DNA of 56,502 nt from Actinomycetota bacterium (GTDB taxonomy: Bacteria; Actinomycetota; Actinomycetes; Nanopelagicales; Nanopelagicaceae). The stretch covers positions 1 to 56,502 of the forward strand of contig JAQBVO010000009.1 of assembly GCA_027728065.1 (NCBI GenBank), in the 5' to 3' direction. The position numbers and the translations under genes are program-made. The first letter of the stretch is position 1; each line of letters begins with the position of its first letter. Of this stretch, positions 48,738-56,470 are shown in pieces. The notes beneath the pieces were generated by a model. The model ran no database searches and was not told the origin of the DNA. It worked only from the letters and a program-made list of their open reading frames with translations.

Positions 48738-49541
48738 ATGACAAGTGATTCTGCACGCTATGCCGATGATTTAGCTTTGGCGCATCTGCTGGCAAATCTT
48801 GCCGATTCAATCGCATTGGATAGATATCAATCCTTGGATTTAGTAGTTACAACCAAACCAGATAACACACCCGTGACCGATGCCGATCGCGCAGTTGAAA
48901 CGGCAATCCGCCAGATGCTTGCCCAGCACCGCCCCAGCGATGGTTTAGTCGGTGAAGAGTTTGGCAGCGATATATCTGGTGCTAAACGTTATTGGGTTAT
49001 AGATCCAATCGATGGAACAAAAAACTTTATGCGTGGGGTCCCAACGTGGGCATGCTTAATCGCCCTGATTGAAGTGGCCGACGATGGGACATCTGAAACC
49101 GTTGTTGGAGTTGTAAGCTCGCCTGCTCTCTCTCGTCGTTGGTTTGCATCGTGGCATGCCGGGGCTTTTGTAACATTTCATGGCACTACTAAAAAGATTT
49201 TAGTCTCACAGGTTGGATCCCTTGCCGATGCATCGATTTCATACTCAGATTTCAACGGCTTCAATGATCGCCTTGTTCCATTTCAAAATATGCTAGCTGC
49301 GGCTTGGCGCACTCGTGGGCTAGGAGATTTTTGGTCGCATATGTTAGTTGCAGAGGGCGCAGTCGATGTGGCGATCGAACCAACGCTTGCACTCTGGGAC
49401 ATGGCGGCTCTTGACATTATTGTGCGCGAGGCCGGTGGGAGATTTACCAATACGGCCGGTCAATCTGGCCCGTTTGGTGGCAGCGGAGTTTCAACTAACG
49501 GTATATTACACAGCGCCGTGATAGATAATCTAAATCTATGA
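48738..49541 (+). CDS. hisN: Histidinol-phosphatase, inositol-monophosphatase family
   Basis: The 267-residue IMPase-fold enzyme has metal-binding motifs VGEEFGSD, IDPIDGTKNFMRGVPTWACLI and WDMAALDIIVREAGGRF. In actinobacteria the copy beside aroA and rsgA is histidinol-phosphate phosphatase (HisN), which performs the penultimate histidine step; other IMPase activities cannot be excluded. It is 12 bases after rsgA and overlaps copA by ATGA. Confidence 0.87.
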   Translation: MTSDSARYADDLALAHLLANLADSIALDRYQSLDLVVTTKPDNTPVTDADRAVETAIRQMLAQHRPSDGLVGEEFGSDISGAKRYWVIDPIDGTKNFMRGVPTWACLIALIEVADDGTSETVVGVVSSPALSRRWFASWHAGAFVTFHGTTKKILVSQVGSLADASISYSDFNGFNDRLVPFQNMLAAAWRTRGLGDFWSHMLVAEGAVDVAIEPTLALWDMAALDIIVREAGGRFTNTAGQSGPFGGSGVSTNGILHSAVIDNLNL

Positions 49542-51781
49542 GCAGTGTTCTAGAACCAACAACCCTTTTAATCGAGGGCATGACCTGCTCATCCTGTGTT
49601 AATACCGTTGAAAACTCCCTTAACTCCATCGATGGTGTGAGTGCGACGGTTAACTTTGCAACCCAGACCGCCCATATCCTGGCTGTAGCCGATTTGGATG
49701 TACAAGCTTTAATTAGGGCCGTTGAAAAAGCTGGTTATAAAGCCGAACTTCTTGGCGATAATCAATCAGTAACACTGCACAGCAAGAAGTCAGCGCGTGC
49801 ACTTATCTTTGCCCTTATTTTTGCAGTACCAGCGGTGACAATCTCTATGGTTATGGATTGGCATCACCACATTGATATGTGGATGATCGCACAGTTGGAT
49901 TCACTTGCAATCGCACGACCCTTGTATTCACCAACTGCATGGCTCGTAATCGCACTAAGTACACCAGTAGTTTTATTCGTTGCTTGGCCGATTCATCGCG
50001 CAGCGTTGCACAATTTAAGACATCCAACCATGGATAACTTGATCTCACTCGGTTCAGTTGCCGCCTTTACGTGGTCGATATATGCCAATGCAACTGGTGT
50101 GGGAGATGTATATACAGAAGTTGCAGCGGGCGTAATCTTGTTAGTGATCCTCGGACGTTTCTTAGAGACCCGTGCAAAGGCACGAGCAGGAGCTGCCCTC
50201 ACATCTCTTTTAGCCTTAGCTAGTAAAGAAGTGACAATCGTGCGCAATGGCTTCCCACTCATTGTTCCGATTGAGCAGGTGCAGATTGGGGATGAGTTTG
50301 AAGTACTTCCAGGTGCACGCATCGCAACCGATGGCATTGTAGTTAAGGGCCAAAGCGCTATCGATAACTCGATGCTCACGGGTGAGTCAAAGCCAATTGA
50401 TGTTGGCCCAGGCTCTTACGTGATTGGCGCATCACTCAATCACAACTCTCGCTTAATTGTTCGGGCCACACGGGTTGGAAGTGATACAGAGTTGGCCCGA
50501 ATTACCGCGATGGTGATTAGTGCACAGGGCACAAAGGCACCGATACAACGTTTAGCCGATCGCATCAGCGCAGTCTTTGTCCCAATCGTCTTACTTATCT
50601 CTATCGCAACATTTCTGGGTTGGTTCTATAGCGATCACTCATTAACTAGGTCCATCTCTGTAGCGATAACTGTCTTAGTAATCGCATGTCCATGCGCCCT
50701 TGGCTTAGCAACTCCCGTGGCATTGCTTGTCGCATCAGGGCGCGGAGCTGGGCGAGGAATAGTGCTACGCGAACCCCGTGTTCTTGAAATCGCCCGCAGT
50801 ATCGATACCGTCGTATTTGATAAGACTGGGACCTTGACACAAGGTGTTATGAATGTACAGGAGTGCAGGATTTCAAGGGCGGCCGGCACTGTTCTCGGTG
50901 GCTCATTTGCTTCCTTGATTAACGAAACAATGATTCTCTCTTCAGCGCTAACTATTGAATCGCAGAACTCTCATCCAGTTGCAGTTGCAATCACTCGTTA
51001 CGCTCTGGCTCAAGGTGCAAAAAACTATAGTTGCACCGAGTTTGCGGTGACCCCAGGCTCTGGCGCTGCAGGTCGTGTCAATCTAGGAGCACAATCACCA
51101 GTTGTCTTAATCGGCTCACCGGCAGCCGTTGCACATAGCTGTACTGATTTTAACTCCGAATTAAAATCGGCGATTGCCGATGGCCATGCCGCTGGATTAA
51201 CCGTTTCAGTTCTTGCATGGGATGGTGTTGCACTTGCAGTCTTTGCCGTGGGTGATCAATTAAAATCCGATGCCGCGCAAACAATTAATCAAGTACGTGC
51301 CATGGGAATTACTCCCTGGTTAGTAACGGGCGATAGCGCCGAGGTCGCAGCATCGGTTGCTTCTACCGTTGGCATAGATGAGGCTCATGTTCGCTCTGGC
51401 GCATTGCCTGAATCCAAGTTAAAGATTGTCGAGCAGTTAAAATCCGAAGGCCACACCGTGTTAATGATTGGCGATGGAATAAACGATGCCGCTGCGCTAA
51501 CGGCTGCAGATCTATCGATGGCTATGGGAACTGGTACCGATACTGCAATTAATAGCGCTGATATCACCTTGATCAACACTGGGCTGGGCAGTGTCATCTC
51601 TGCACTTAAGCTCTCAAAGAAGACTCTTCGCATAATTCATCTAAATATGGGTTGGGCCTTGATCTATAACGTTATAGGCCTGCCAATCGCCGCTGCAGGT
51701 CTGCTTCGACCAATCTATGCCGCCGCGGCAATGGCCCTGTCATCGCTCTTTGTTGTAACGAACTCACTGCGCATCAAGTAG
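49538..51781 (+). CDS. copA: Copper-type P1B ATPase
   Basis: The 747-residue heavy-metal pump has one N-terminal metal-binding domain (GMTCSSCVNTVENSL, Cys pair), eight membrane helices, the actuator loop with LTGESKP, the membrane CPC (VIACPCALGLATPVALLVASG), phosphorylation DKTGTLTQG, the SHPVAVA nucleotide-binding motif and GDGINDAAAL. CPC with the N-(x)n and M-x2-S helices near the end indicates copper(I) transport. It overlaps hisN by ATGA; the copper regulator or chaperone genes often linked to it are not in the window. Confidence 0.93.
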   Translation: MSSVLEPTTLLIEGMTCSSCVNTVENSLNSIDGVSATVNFATQTAHILAVADLDVQALIRAVEKAGYKAELLGDNQSVTLHSKKSARALIFALIFAVPAVTISMVMDWHHHIDMWMIAQLDSLAIARPLYSPTAWLVIALSTPVVLFVAWPIHRAALHNLRHPTMDNLISLGSVAAFTWSIYANATGVGDVYTEVAAGVILLVILGRFLETRAKARAGAALTSLLALASKEVTIVRNGFPLIVPIEQVQIGDEFEVLPGARIATDGIVVKGQSAIDNSMLTGESKPIDVGPGSYVIGASLNHNSRLIVRATRVGSDTELARITAMVISAQGTKAPIQRLADRISAVFVPIVLLISIATFLGWFYSDHSLTRSISVAITVLVIACPCALGLATPVALLVASGRGAGRGIVLREPRVLEIARSIDTVVFDKTGTLTQGVMNVQECRISRAAGTVLGGSFASLINETMILSSALTIESQNSHPVAVAITRYALAQGAKNYSCTEFAVTPGSGAAGRVNLGAQSPVVLIGSPAAVAHSCTDFNSELKSAIADGHAAGLTVSVLAWDGVALAVFAVGDQLKSDAAQTINQVRAMGITPWLVTGDSAEVAASVASTVGIDEAHVRSGALPESKLKIVEQLKSEGHTVLMIGDGINDAAALTAADLSMAMGTGTDTAINSADITLINTGLGSVISALKLSKKTLRIIHLNMGWALIYNVIGLPIAAAGLLRPIYAAAAMALSSLFVVTNSLRIK

Positions 51782-51812
51782 CACGGCGAGATTTTTGCAC
51801 TTTTGAAACTAG

Positions 51813-51886
51813 TAGTGGGGGCAGGATTTGAACCTACGACCTCTGGGTTATGAGCCCAGCGAGCTACCGAGCTGCTCCACCCCGCG
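51813..51886 (-). tRNA. tRNA-fMet (CAT), copy 1, with an acceptor mismatch
   Basis: Read from 51886, the 74 bases fold as initiator tRNA: acceptor CGCGGGG, D arm, anticodon stem GGG/CCC around CTCATAA (anticodon CAT), T arm GTAGG-TTCAAAT-CCTGC, discriminator A. C1 faces T72, an unpaired first position as in initiator tRNAs, and the anticodon stem has three G-C pairs. The 3' strand reads CCCCACT, so C3 faces A70, while the copy at 56397-56470 has CCCCGCT with a normal pair. This copy may be impaired. Confidence 0.92.
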
Positions 51887-52001: not shown

Positions 52002-52246
52002 TTACTTCTTTACTTGGGCAGCTATCGCTGAAGCGATTGCAGATTTCAAATGATCTTGCGCACGACCGTATGCAGCAAAGTCACCAATTGCGAGGGCCGC
52101 TTGTCCATCTGCCAACGCTTGTTTAGCGCTAGCTAGTGCACTAGCCAGAGAGTCATTAGTTGTTCCAATAGCGGTCAGTGTTCCACCTGAGGAAGTTGTA
52201 CCGGAGTTACCACCGAATACTTGATCAAGTGCTTTTAACAGCCATG
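52002..52246 (-). pseudogene. C-terminal fragment of a UPF0182 (COG1615) membrane protein gene
   Basis: Read leftward, about 80 codons end at TAA 52002. The translation begins near KALDQVFGGNSGTTSSGG and continues with SALASAKQALADGQAALAIGD and FAAYGRAQDHLKSAIASAIA. LDQVFGGNSG followed by a Gly/Thr-rich linker and an Ala-rich helix with GDFAAYGRAQ is the typical C-terminal tail of the roughly 900-1000 residue actinobacterial UPF0182 proteins. The membrane part is missing: the frame is lost at about 52246. It looks like the remains of a truncated gene copy. Confidence 0.72.
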
Positions 52247-52536
52247 GCCAATATCTCGCGAGAGCGCACAGATCGCTACTCTAAACTGCGTAGTGCTCAG
52301 ACCAAAAAACTTCTCACAACGGGTAAGGCGAAAATCGAGATGTCCTATATTGGCGGGTAAGAATCACTCGGAAGCGACAAGTTCGGACTCCACTTCCAAA
52401 GAGTAAGTGGTTGAATTTAATTTGGATCTTCACCGAGTCAATCATGGTCATAATTATTTTCGCGATAGCTGCACGACCACTCTTCCTCGAACCAATTGCA
52501 TCTCTTAACGGAAAACTTAGCAGCAGATAAATCGCT
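52247..52536. other. Interval without a recognisable gene
   Basis: The stretch holds only short frames: plus-strand ATG 52244-52360 (38 codons, MANISRERTDRYSKLRSAQT...) and plus-strand ATG 52444-52530 (28 codons, one hydrophobic helix MVIIIFAIAARPLFLE). The second frame stays open upstream to about 52327 without a clear start. Neither has a good ribosome-binding site or a family I recognise. It reads like decayed coding sequence between the UPF0182 fragment and the DUF2237 gene. Confidence 0.4.
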
Positions 52537-52929
52537 TTAGAGAAGTGAGCTTGGATCTGAGGGAACATCCATCGAGTTAGCAAGCAGGGCTTCAATAGAT
52601 ACATACGGTGCAGCTGCTTCATTGGTGGCAGCAAGGACAACGCCGGTTGGAACACCGTCATTAATTGCTTGTTGCCATCGTCCCGCACATACTGCCCACC
52701 GATCCCCCGGTTTTAGCCCTGGGAATCCATATTCGGGCACGGGTGTTGATAAATCATTGCCAACGCGCTTTTGATGGGCTAAGAACTCGGCACTGACAAC
52801 TGTGCAGACAGTGTGGCTCCCCAGATCCTCTGGTCCAGTGTTGGCATAGCCATCGCGATAGAAGCCGGTGAGTGGATCGAGGCTGCAGATCTCTAACTCT
52901 CCGCCGACAATATTCTGTTGTGGCTCCAT
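52537..52929 (-). CDS. DUF2237 family protein
   Basis: The 130-residue protein matches the DUF2237 pattern closely: LEICSLDPLTGFYRDGYANTGPEDLGSHTVC, EFLAHQKRVGNDLSTPVPEYGFPGLKPGDRWAVCAGRW and GVVLAATNEAA, given here as separate conserved blocks. Function is unknown; the conserved Cys, Asp and His residues suggest metal binding or catalysis. ATG 52929 begins MEPQQNIVGGELEIC. It stands alone in a poorly packed region, with no gene in 52930-53064. Confidence 0.88.
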   Translation of the reverse strand: MEPQQNIVGGELEICSLDPLTGFYRDGYANTGPEDLGSHTVCTVVSAEFLAHQKRVGNDLSTPVPEYGFPGLKPGDRWAVCAGRWQQAINDGVPTGVVLAATNEAAAPYVSIEALLANSMDVPSDPSSLL

Positions 52930-53064
52930 AAGAGTAAGTATGATACAACAGAATGGAAATAACTAATCGATGAATTGGAACATACCTGTTGCGCATCGAA
53001 GTTGATAATCGCATCATTACATAGTTGGAGGTGCGGTAATTATTAGGACGGTTAGAATCGAGCC

Positions 53065-53145
53065 ATGTTCTTAGATATCTATACTGACGAGATTATTGGT
53101 CGTGCAATTTTTACTCGGATATTGGTTGGACCAGAATCACAATGA
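53065..53145 (+). pseudogene. Truncated TatB-like stub translationally fused by overlap to mrp
   Basis: A 26-codon ORF starts MFLDIYTDEII and continues to ILVGPESQ before a stop. TatB proteins begin with nearly this pattern: MF-x-I-x-x-x-E-L/I, one membrane helix and a hinge VGPE(R/K)LP. Here the ORF ends right after the hinge, so the amphipathic helix and tail of TatB are absent, and charged residues (Arg at two places) interrupt the helix. TAGAAT (53053-53058) lies 6 bases before ATG 53065, and the stop overlaps the mrp start (ATGA). It may survive as a leader that drives mrp translation. Confidence 0.6.
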
Positions 53146-54266
53146 CGGTAATAGAGCAGATTAATGGCGCGCTAGCGCAGGTTAAAGACCCGGAACTGCA
53201 CCGCCCACTCCCAGATTTGGGGATGGTCGAATCAGTAACATTTTCTGATGGGGTAGCGCACATCAAGATTTTACTTACAATCTCTGGTTGCCCCATGCAG
53301 GATCGACTTCGCACCGATGTCACGGCGGCGGTTACTAACATTTCTGAAGTTGCACGAGTTGAGGTAGAACTTGGGGTGATGTCAGAGGAACAACTTAATA
53401 ATGTTAAAAAAATTCTGCGTAATGGTCGCGAAAAATTCATTCCATTTAGTCAACCAGATTCGCGGACGAGGGTGATTGGCGTTGCATCAGGTAAGGGCGG
53501 TGTTGGTAAGTCCTCCCTGACAGTCAATCTTGCCGTTGCAACTGCCCAAAAAGGTTTGAGTGTTGGAATTCTTGACGCTGATGTCTATGGACATTCGATT
53601 CCGCGCTTAATGGGTTTGATAGGTCTGCGTCCTACCGCTCTGGACCGATCAATGTTTATCCCACTGGAAGCTTTCGGTGTAAAGGTTGTTTCAATGGAGA
53701 TGTTTAAGAATGAACGTTCTGATGTAATTGCTTTTCGGGGCCCTCTTTTGCATAAATCATTGGAACAACTGCTCGCAGATGCCTACTGGGGTGATTTGGA
53801 CATTCTCTTTATTGATTTACCACCAGGCACTGGCGATCTTGCCATGTCACTGGGGCAACTAATTCCCTCCTCTGAAGTTCTCATTGTGACTACACCACAA
53901 ATAGCAGCATCTGAAGTGGCTGAGCGTTCTGGTCGGCTCGCGCACATACTCAAGCAACATGTCATTGGCGTTATCGAAAATATGTCAGATTTTACTTCCC
54001 CTATTTCTGGTGAATTAATTTCACTTTTTGGTACCGGCGGAGGCGAAACAACTGCAGAGAGTCTCTCCAAATTATTTGGCATCGAAGTTCCGCTGCTGGG
54101 AAAGATTCCTTTCAATTTGGAGTTGCGTACTGGCGGTGATGCTGGCACTCCTGTTGTGCTACAAAATCCAGAATCGGCGGCAGCGATAGTAATTGCTAAG
54201 ATAGCCACGCAAATAATTGTGAGAAGTAAATCTTTAGTAGGCCGCCAGTTGGGTATTACTACGTGA
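53142..54266 (+). CDS. mrp: Mrp/ApbC-type iron-sulfur cluster carrier ATPase
   Basis: The 374-residue protein has an N-terminal DUF59/MIP18 domain (about 5-90, VKDPELHRPLPDLGMVESV, ISGCPMQDRLRTDV) and a ParA-like ATPase with deviant Walker A SGKGGVGKSSLTVNLA, DADVYGHSIPRLMGL and DILFIDLPPGTGDLAMSL. The C-terminal CxxC of many Mrp proteins is absent (ENMSDFTSPISGE), as in other actinobacterial members. Mrp delivers 4Fe-4S clusters to apoproteins; local users would include IspH, fumarase, AdnA and WhiB7. Its start overlaps the TatB stub. Confidence 0.93.
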   Translation: MTVIEQINGALAQVKDPELHRPLPDLGMVESVTFSDGVAHIKILLTISGCPMQDRLRTDVTAAVTNISEVARVEVELGVMSEEQLNNVKKILRNGREKFIPFSQPDSRTRVIGVASGKGGVGKSSLTVNLAVATAQKGLSVGILDADVYGHSIPRLMGLIGLRPTALDRSMFIPLEAFGVKVVSMEMFKNERSDVIAFRGPLLHKSLEQLLADAYWGDLDILFIDLPPGTGDLAMSLGQLIPSSEVLIVTTPQIAASEVAERSGRLAHILKQHVIGVIENMSDFTSPISGELISLFGTGGGETTAESLSKLFGIEVPLLGKIPFNLELRTGGDAGTPVVLQNPESAAAIVIAKIATQIIVRSKSLVGRQLGITT

Positions 54267-54304: not shown

Positions 54305-56308
54305 ATGACTAATCGCCTAAGCCTTGCTACAAGTCCATATTTGCAGCAACATGCCACCAATCCGGTTCACTGGTGGGAGTGGTCTGATGCGGCATTCGCT
54401 GAAGCGAGCAGACGTGATCTGCCAATTTTTCTCTCCATTGGATACTCCGCCTGCCATTGGTGTCACGTCATGGCTCATGAATCATTTGAAGATATAAATA
54501 TCGCGAACTTTCTCAACGAACATTTCATCAGCATTAAAGTCGATCGCGAAGAGCGCCCAGATATTGATGCGGTCTACATGCAAGCAACCGTGGCCCTTAC
54601 CGGACATGGCGGTTGGCCGATGAGCGTTTTATTAGATCAAGAGGGCCGCCCCTTTTATGCAGGAACTTATTTCCCTCCTACTCCACATCACGGCCTGCCA
54701 TCATTTATGCAGGTGCTGCATGGAATTCAAAAAGCATGGGCAGAAAGGCGCACCGAGATTTACACAACTGCGGTAAAAATTATTGAATCGCTGCAAACTC
54801 CCACGCTGCAATCAGGGGCGCTGCCATCTGCCGAAGATTTTCAGAGCGCAGTTACAGCACTGGTGCGCGATTTCGATTCTGTGAATGGTGGATTTGGCAA
54901 TGCACCAAAATTTCCTCCCTCAATGTTGTTGGAGTTTTTATTACGCGAACACGCTAGATCCGGTAACTCGCAGGCGTTAACGATGGCAGAGAGAACGCTT
55001 ACCGCAATGGCACGCGGCGGTATATACGACCAACTGGGCGGAGGATTTTCGCGGTACTCAGTCGATAGTAAATGGGTAGTACCGCATTTTGAAAAAATGT
55101 TATATGACAATGCACTCTTACTGCGCGTATATACGCACTGGTGGCGTATATCGGATTCTGAGCTGGCTCGTCGCATTGTCTATGAAACCGTAGAGTTCAT
55201 GCTGCGCGAACTTCGTACTGATCAGGGCGCCTTCGCATCTGCCCTTGATGCCGATACGGAAGGCGCCGAAGGTACCTATTATGTATGGAGCATTGAAAAA
55301 TTAATTGACGTTCTCGGTGAGTGCGATGGGCGGTGGGCCAGCGAAGTTTTACATGTCACGGGCGAAGGCAGCTTCGAGCATGGCTTATCAACGCTCCAAC
55401 TGTTGAATGATCCAAGCGATCAAGTGCGGTGGAGTCAGATTAAACAGCAACTTTTCACTGCCCGTAATCTTCGTCCGCGCCCAAATCGTGACGACAAAGT
55501 AGTGGCAGCATGGAATGGGTTGGCTATTGCAGCCATTGCCGAAGCGGGGGTGCTCTTTAGCCAAACATCGTGGATTGCCGCAGCAGAGAGCGCTGCAGAT
55601 CTCATTGCCAAGGTGCACCTGAATGAAACTGGGCAACGATTGCTGCGAACTTCGCGAGATGGCATGGCAGGTTCAAGTTGGGGCGTTTTAGATGACTACG
55701 CAAATGTGGCAGAGGGATTTCTTGCACTCTATCAAGTGAGCGGAGTTGAAAAATGGATACTCCTAGCTGGAAAGTTTCTGGATACCATTCTTCTTCACTT
55801 CGATGATAGTGAAGATGGATTCTTTGATACCGCCGATGATGCGCCATCGTTGGTAGGCAGACCAAAGAGCATCTCTGATAATGCCGAACCCGCTGGCTGG
55901 CTGGCGAGTGCGAATGCGCTACTGACTTATGCCGCCCTCACAGGGGAGAATAATTATCGAATCCGGGCAGAAGCTGCCCTGGCAAAGATCACGCCATTGA
56001 TAGCACGTGCGCCGCGCGCTATTGGCTGGGGCTTAGTGGCGGCAACCGCCTTGCTCGACGGACCAAGACAGGTAGCAATTATTGGACCAGCGGGTGAGGC
56101 GAGCGATGAATTGTGGCATCGCGCTTGGAAGAGCACCGCACCTGGCGCCGTCATTGCTCGCGCTTCGCCGAACGTGAACCCAACGGTCGGACTGCTTAAA
56201 AATCGCCCCATGGTTGGTGATCACCCAACTGCATATGTTTGCCGTGGTTTTGTCTGTGAACTACCAACCACGGATCCCACTGAATTAACGCAGATACTAC
56301 GAAAGTAG
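54305..56308 (+). CDS. YyaL/SSP411-type protein with thioredoxin-like and (alpha/alpha)6 domains
   Basis: The 667-residue protein starts MTNRLSLATSPYLQQHATNPVHW, followed by the DUF255 thioredoxin-like domain with YSACHWCHVMAHESFED and KVDREERPDIDAVYM, then a helical six-hairpin glycosidase-like domain (GGIYDQLGGGFSRYSVDSKWVVPHFEKMLYDNA). These are the marks of the YyaL/SSP411 family, whose function is unsettled. ATG 54305 fits the conserved start; GTG 54290 would add five residues. It lies 38 bases after mrp and may be cotranscribed. Confidence 0.93.
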   Translation: MTNRLSLATSPYLQQHATNPVHWWEWSDAAFAEASRRDLPIFLSIGYSACHWCHVMAHESFEDINIANFLNEHFISIKVDREERPDIDAVYMQATVALTGHGGWPMSVLLDQEGRPFYAGTYFPPTPHHGLPSFMQVLHGIQKAWAERRTEIYTTAVKIIESLQTPTLQSGALPSAEDFQSAVTALVRDFDSVNGGFGNAPKFPPSMLLEFLLREHARSGNSQALTMAERTLTAMARGGIYDQLGGGFSRYSVDSKWVVPHFEKMLYDNALLLRVYTHWWRISDSELARRIVYETVEFMLRELRTDQGAFASALDADTEGAEGTYYVWSIEKLIDVLGECDGRWASEVLHVTGEGSFEHGLSTLQLLNDPSDQVRWSQIKQQLFTARNLRPRPNRDDKVVAAWNGLAIAAIAEAGVLFSQTSWIAAAESAADLIAKVHLNETGQRLLRTSRDGMAGSSWGVLDDYANVAEGFLALYQVSGVEKWILLAGKFLDTILLHFDDSEDGFFDTADDAPSLVGRPKSISDNAEPAGWLASANALLTYAALTGENNYRIRAEAALAKITPLIARAPRAIGWGLVAATALLDGPRQVAIIGPAGEASDELWHRAWKSTAPGAVIARASPNVNPTVGLLKNRPMVGDHPTAYVCRGFVCELPTTDPTELTQILRK

Positions 56309-56393: not shown

Positions 56394-56470
<77 letters not shown>

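Follow-up and report, generated by a model that had tools for sequence, protein, structure and literature searches.

The 56,502-nucleotide window analysed here, a whole contig (JAQBVO010000009.1, assembly GCA_027728065.1) of a Nanopelagicaceae bacterium, a small-genome and probably freshwater actinobacterium, carries directly upstream of a second mrp gene a 26-codon ORF that, judged by its sequence, is an in-frame relic of tatB. Very likely a second tatB-mrp unit was acquired horizontally, its redundant tatB was deleted in frame, and the promoter and translational coupling survived. The unit would have come from a related actinobacterium and been set next to a tRNA-Met gene, between the genes for a P-type ATPase and a DUF255 protein, with the loss of about 231 bp from tatB following afterwards. 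The event itself, apparent gene transfer with partial decay, is an ordinary one with an unusually exact anatomy.

The ORF (53065–53145, forward strand) encodes the 26-residue product MFLDIYTDEIIGRAIFTRILVGPESQ, which reads in frame as TatB residues 1–22 followed by the last four codons. It scores 20.0 bits (E 1.3e-4) against a profile built on 131 different products of intact tatB genes; the maximum is 9.2 bits in 2000 shuffles and 4.0 bits for any other of the 1660 window ORFs. At the DNA level, positions 53034–53135, covering promoter and stub, align at 75.5% identity to the promoter and start of tatB in L075, an actinobacterial MAG from Hainich that does not belong to the genus set, and positions 53131–54264 align at 77.5% to the end of the same tatB and its mrp. 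Profile score and DNA alignment together establish homology to the TatB N-terminus and, with the geometry of the deletion, rule out an unrelated small ORF. A Pfam scan of the stub returned no family, the curated cut-off for TatB not being reached, and the characteristic TatB architecture of uncharged transmembrane helix, hinge, amphipathic helix and C-terminal region is lacking: relative to L075 tatB, 77 of 103 codons are gone. Frame, start and hinge residues are retained, and two arginines lie within the former membrane helix, where none of the 142 intact TatB proteins has a charged residue. Compared with an identical deletion construct of L075, the stub differs at 11 residues, these two arginines among them. 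The most likely reading is that the stub cannot serve as a working TatB and no longer yields a membrane protein. The portion of the literature on tatB with mrp or on truncated tatB that a limited search covered holds no such stub, which is not proof of absence.

The stub joins the first 22 TatB codons to the last four. If tatB is cut from the proline codon of VGP[ED] to that of DP[DE], 26 codons, the observed length, are predicted to remain in 142 of 142 intact genes, since the first proline comes after 22 codons and the second opens the final four. The two window pieces aligned to L075 overlap by five bases, CCAGA (53131–53135, forward strand), at the deletion junction. In the L075 gene the same 5-mer bounds the missing 231 bp on either side, in register: it occurs once in the VGPE codons and once, in frame, in the DPDLL codons, and removal of one copy with the intervening DNA leaves 26 codons. 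In-register repeats of at least five bases occur in 57 of 142 intact tatB genes (34 5-mers, 18 6-mers and 5 7-mers) and of only two or three bases in the other 85. Recombination or slippage between the short repeats at the VGPE and DPDLL codons may have produced the deletion; since the scanned parts of L075 tatB contain ten other repeats of 5–6 bases, one of them longer than CCAGA, the 5-mer alone proves no mechanism. The start of tatB, its promoter and its overlap with mrp would have been kept throughout. The original prediction, which had seen in this ORF a TatB remnant whose start was joined to mrp by an internal in-frame deletion that spared promoter and stop-start overlap, is borne out in all these points. 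Both signals can be read from the window sequence: TAGAAT, a −10-like box of the leaderless promoter type (53053–53058, forward strand), lies 6 nt before the stub ATG, and the TGA stop overlaps the mrp start in a 4-nt ATGA (53142–53145, forward strand).

The consequence drawn for protein export fared differently. The locus had been treated as the tatB-mrp locus of the genome, leaving the Tat system to find another TatB or to work without one; it is in fact a second copy. The suggested search of the genome for tatA, tatB and tatC found all three: an intact 101-codon tatB lies on contig 15 (G000:C15:132203-132508) directly upstream of the native mrp (C15:132505-133623), and tatA and tatC are neighbours on contig 1. 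That this genome has lost TatB is thereby excluded. An intact tatB elsewhere combined with absence of the stub from the relatives examined had been named beforehand as telling against the proposal; this combination is what was found, and it overturns the Tat consequence while leaving the TatB origin of the stub standing. Unimpaired aerobic growth of Corynebacterium glutamicum strictly depends on TatB as well as on TatA and TatC (PMC4383559), so an intact tatB copy is to be expected here. With a complete tatB and mrp elsewhere, the protein-export system is probably unaffected, and Tat most likely relies on the contig-15 tatB. As a separate observation, tatA gives two matches of identical score in the relative G014, at a distance of 1.5 kb (G014:C1:649445 and 650943).

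An mrp match at E ≤ 1e-100 is present in 129 of 135 genus genomes, and two full mrp genes in one of the 135, the window's own, many of the others being incomplete drafts. Of 146 mrp loci, 144 have an intact tatB upstream (142 recognised by script, the other two, G129 and G146, by eye), one has the window stub and one runs into a contig end (G071). Besides the two copies described here, the count draws on 125 other genomes of the genus and on 19 named records that overlap with these genomes in part; outside the count stand G027, G072 and G108, with partial mrp, and 6 genomes with no match.

The stub lies in a region flanked by two near-identical tRNA-Met genes 4.6 kb apart (51812–51886 and 56396–56470, both on the reverse strand), which belong to a 93-nt direct repeat with 92% identity; the contig ends 32 nt past the second. 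The order in the window is a copper-type P-ATPase gene (49538–51781, forward strand), the first tRNA-Met, the end of a large membrane-protein gene (52005–52241, reverse strand), a DUF2237 gene divergent from the stub (52537–52929, reverse strand), the stub, mrp, a thioredoxin-domain (DUF255) gene (54305–56308, forward strand) and the second tRNA-Met. The relative G116 lacks the insert: there, 64 bases separate the ATPase gene from the DUF255 gene, and tRNA-Met comes next. Direct tRNA repeats beside DNA that is absent from a relative are what a tRNA-associated insert displays. Among the best 29 of 67 ATPase loci in other relatives, tRNA-Met follows downstream in 22, with an intervening ORF in 4; 6 end within 300 bases, and 1 (G076) shows other ORFs, its 1497 bases being free of tRNA. 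No integrase turned up among the main genes and the six insert ORFs that were scanned with Pfam.

The membrane-protein fragment corresponds to C-terminal residues 866–945 (80 residues) of a gene that lies beyond tRNA-Met in relatives and whose main copy is on contig 14; at 79.6% identity over 113 columns to that copy, the fragment is a distinct one. Of the 101 genus genomes sampled, 2 carry the DUF255 gene and 1, the window's own, the DUF2237 gene; DUF2237 has no match in the genomes of L075, L076, L077, L078 and L088 or in G116, G099 and G060, and a viral-contig scan gave one distant DUF2237 at 49%. A search of positions 52234–53060 in six genomes yielded no convincing match beyond the segment itself (best E 0.08). 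As DUF2237 is missing from the L075 genome and this segment is unmatched there, the insert is a mosaic, and the source of the transfer indirect. A signal-peptidase remnant suspected by eye near 52411–52530 was discarded, Pfam giving nothing.

The draft state of the genome (45 contigs) invites the suspicion of an assembly artefact, in which DNA of another species was spliced into the contig and the stub is really that species' own, all the more as the window, itself an entire contig, stops just past a repeated tRNA-Met and the mrp of the block is not of the host clade. We regard this as improbable. Clade DNA lies on both sides of the block, the ATPase being 85% identical to that of G099 and the DUF255 protein 86% to that of G116; the join to the DUF255 gene falls outside the repeats found, so that a chimera needs two false joins; and the divergence of the tRNA-side fragment from the contig-14 copy argues against a simple assembly fork. 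Even then the stub would still be a tatB relic, merely in another genome. Mis-binning of the whole contig is excluded by the ATPase, which has one match in its own genome at E ≤ 1e-200 and its nearest relative, among 81 genomes, in G099, and by the synteny with G116.

To return to the apparently acquired and partly deleted unit, the signals it retains are typical of the locus. TANNNT occurs 4–9 nt before the start of 126 of 141 intact tatB genes and in 8 of 141 equal-size control stretches, and Shine-Dalgarno (SD)-like motifs precede 3 of 141 tatB and 0 of 133 mrp genes, counts drawn from related and hence not independent sequences; none precedes the window mrp. The 4-nt tatB/mrp overlap (ATGA, in a few cases GTGA) is found in 135 of 146 loci, the window locus included. 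At 8 further loci the script had placed the mrp start elsewhere, and the tatB stop in the mrp frame forms ATGA in 7 and GTGA in 1; at the remaining 3, where the script had found no tatB, G129 and G146 show ATGA by eye and G071 is cut off. ATGA overlaps commonly couple translation, and strict coupling held for 13 of the 14 pairs tested in one study (PMC6728339). The stub-mrp pair has two sequence marks of a coupled pair, the overlap and the lack of an own SD-like motif before the downstream gene. With promoter and overlap retained, the likeliest role of the stub is that of a leader for mrp; we infer from these sequence signals that it most likely acts only as a translated leader ORF, at whose stop terminating ribosomes would pass to an mrp that has no SD-like motif, and that the pair may currently be expressed.

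Might the stub instead be a working Tat mini-protein or regulator under selection? Its frame, start and hinge residues are kept, and translation would follow if the leaderless signals are as active here as they seem to be in relatives. Such a function is nonetheless very unlikely, given the two arginines in a helix that is uncharged in 142 of 142 intact TatB proteins, the loss of the regions beyond the hinge and the full TatB present in the genome. The divergence, moreover, fits neutral change, 22 substitutions having altered 11 amino acids (P(≤11) 0.15). Neutral simulations leave the 26-codon frame uninterrupted in 65% of runs with 22 substitutions, in 81% with 11 and in 87% with 7; a frame that survives drift in 65–87% of runs provides no evidence of selection on the stub.

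The gene served by this putative leader, mrp (53142–54266, forward strand), is open and full-length, encodes a Mrp/NBP35 ATPase with the Walker A motif GKGGVGKS intact, and shows both expected Pfam domains (PF10609, E 2e-78; PF01883, E 1e-17). Its nearest relative is that of L075, with 78.0% protein and 77.7% DNA identity; the source of this MAG, Hainich, is presumably a groundwater site. The next nearest, L077, reaches 76.1% and 70.0%, respectively. L075 did not turn up among the 135 genus genomes, where the best non-self match is 75%. In a 49-row tree, drawn from 144 aligned copies, the window mrp groups with L075 (SH-aLRT 84) on a long branch, and the native mrp lies near G116, G067 and G099; in an earlier 33-row tree without L075, the window mrp stood beside two genus groups (80/90). 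The viral-contig scan revealed no relative of the window mrp. An in-genome duplication of the native tatB-mrp with subsequent decay, and no transfer, would suit the presence of both copies in one genome and a fast-evolving window copy capable of distorting the tree, but is highly improbable: AU tests, in which long-branch effects may still play a part, reject the window mrp with the native copy (p 0.0001) and with the native clade (p 0.0005), DNA identity is 77.7% to L075 against 66% to the native copy, and the promoter region too aligns to L075.

The apparently acquired Mrp also departs from its relatives in a functional motif. SPIS (53997–54008, forward strand; placed by alignment, with coordinates from the sequence) stands where 125 of 144 aligned Mrp copies have CxxC; the 19 without it include the native copy (DPTT) and those of G116 and G099 (both DPAT). 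In the members that have been studied, CxxC holds a bridging [4Fe-4S] cluster and cannot be dispensed with (PMC6345978). The window protein lacks one defining mark of the family and is still classed as a Mrp homologue, with Fe-S carriage doubtful. With six outgroups, 41–52 amino-acid changes fall on the window mrp and 15–19 on L075; four-fold sites are less uneven, at 23–26 versus 14–23. In the control comparison of the native contig-15 mrp with G116 the counts are 20 v 8, 23 v 7 and 12 v 9 with three outgroups; as the native gene is also fast with two of the three, some of the acceleration may be genome-wide. The dN/dS of the window mrp versus L075, the one comparison used because synonymous rates were saturated or undefined for most pairs, is 0.13, indicating that constraint remains.

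It is tempting to speculate, although we consider it rather doubtful, that the transferred Mrp lost CxxC (SPIS), the host Mrp lost it differently (DPTT), and the decayed tatB is a mere coupling leader that keeps a spare Mrp made. If so, Mrp in this clade would work without the bridging cluster, and a dead gene would be retained purely as a translation device. Quite apart from this speculation, the locus points to at least two losses of the cluster-binding cysteines among Mrp proteins, a proposition open to testing. It also offers a clean snapshot of decay after apparent gene transfer in a small-genome bacterium, in which the deletion, the parts kept and an intact reference can all be read, and it does away with the tempting but mistaken idea that TatB was lost.

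Comparison with known systems places these features in perspective. The stub resembles actinobacterial TatB of the TatABC translocase in its N-terminus, promoter type, stop-start overlap and, with respect to the relatives examined, its place upstream of mrp, whereas its helix is broken by two arginines and all that lay between the hinge and the last four codons is deleted. The window Mrp is like the Mrp/NBP35 (ApbC) Fe-S carrier ATPases in its Walker A motif, its FeS_assembly_P and NUBPL-type domains and its full length, and differs from them in having SPIS for CxxC, a motif that the native Mrp (DPTT) likewise lacks. The junction matches termination-reinitiation coupling at ATGA overlaps, both in the ATGA itself and in the missing SD-like motif before the downstream gene; the difference is that the upstream ORF here is a decayed gene, so that the device would have outlived the protein.
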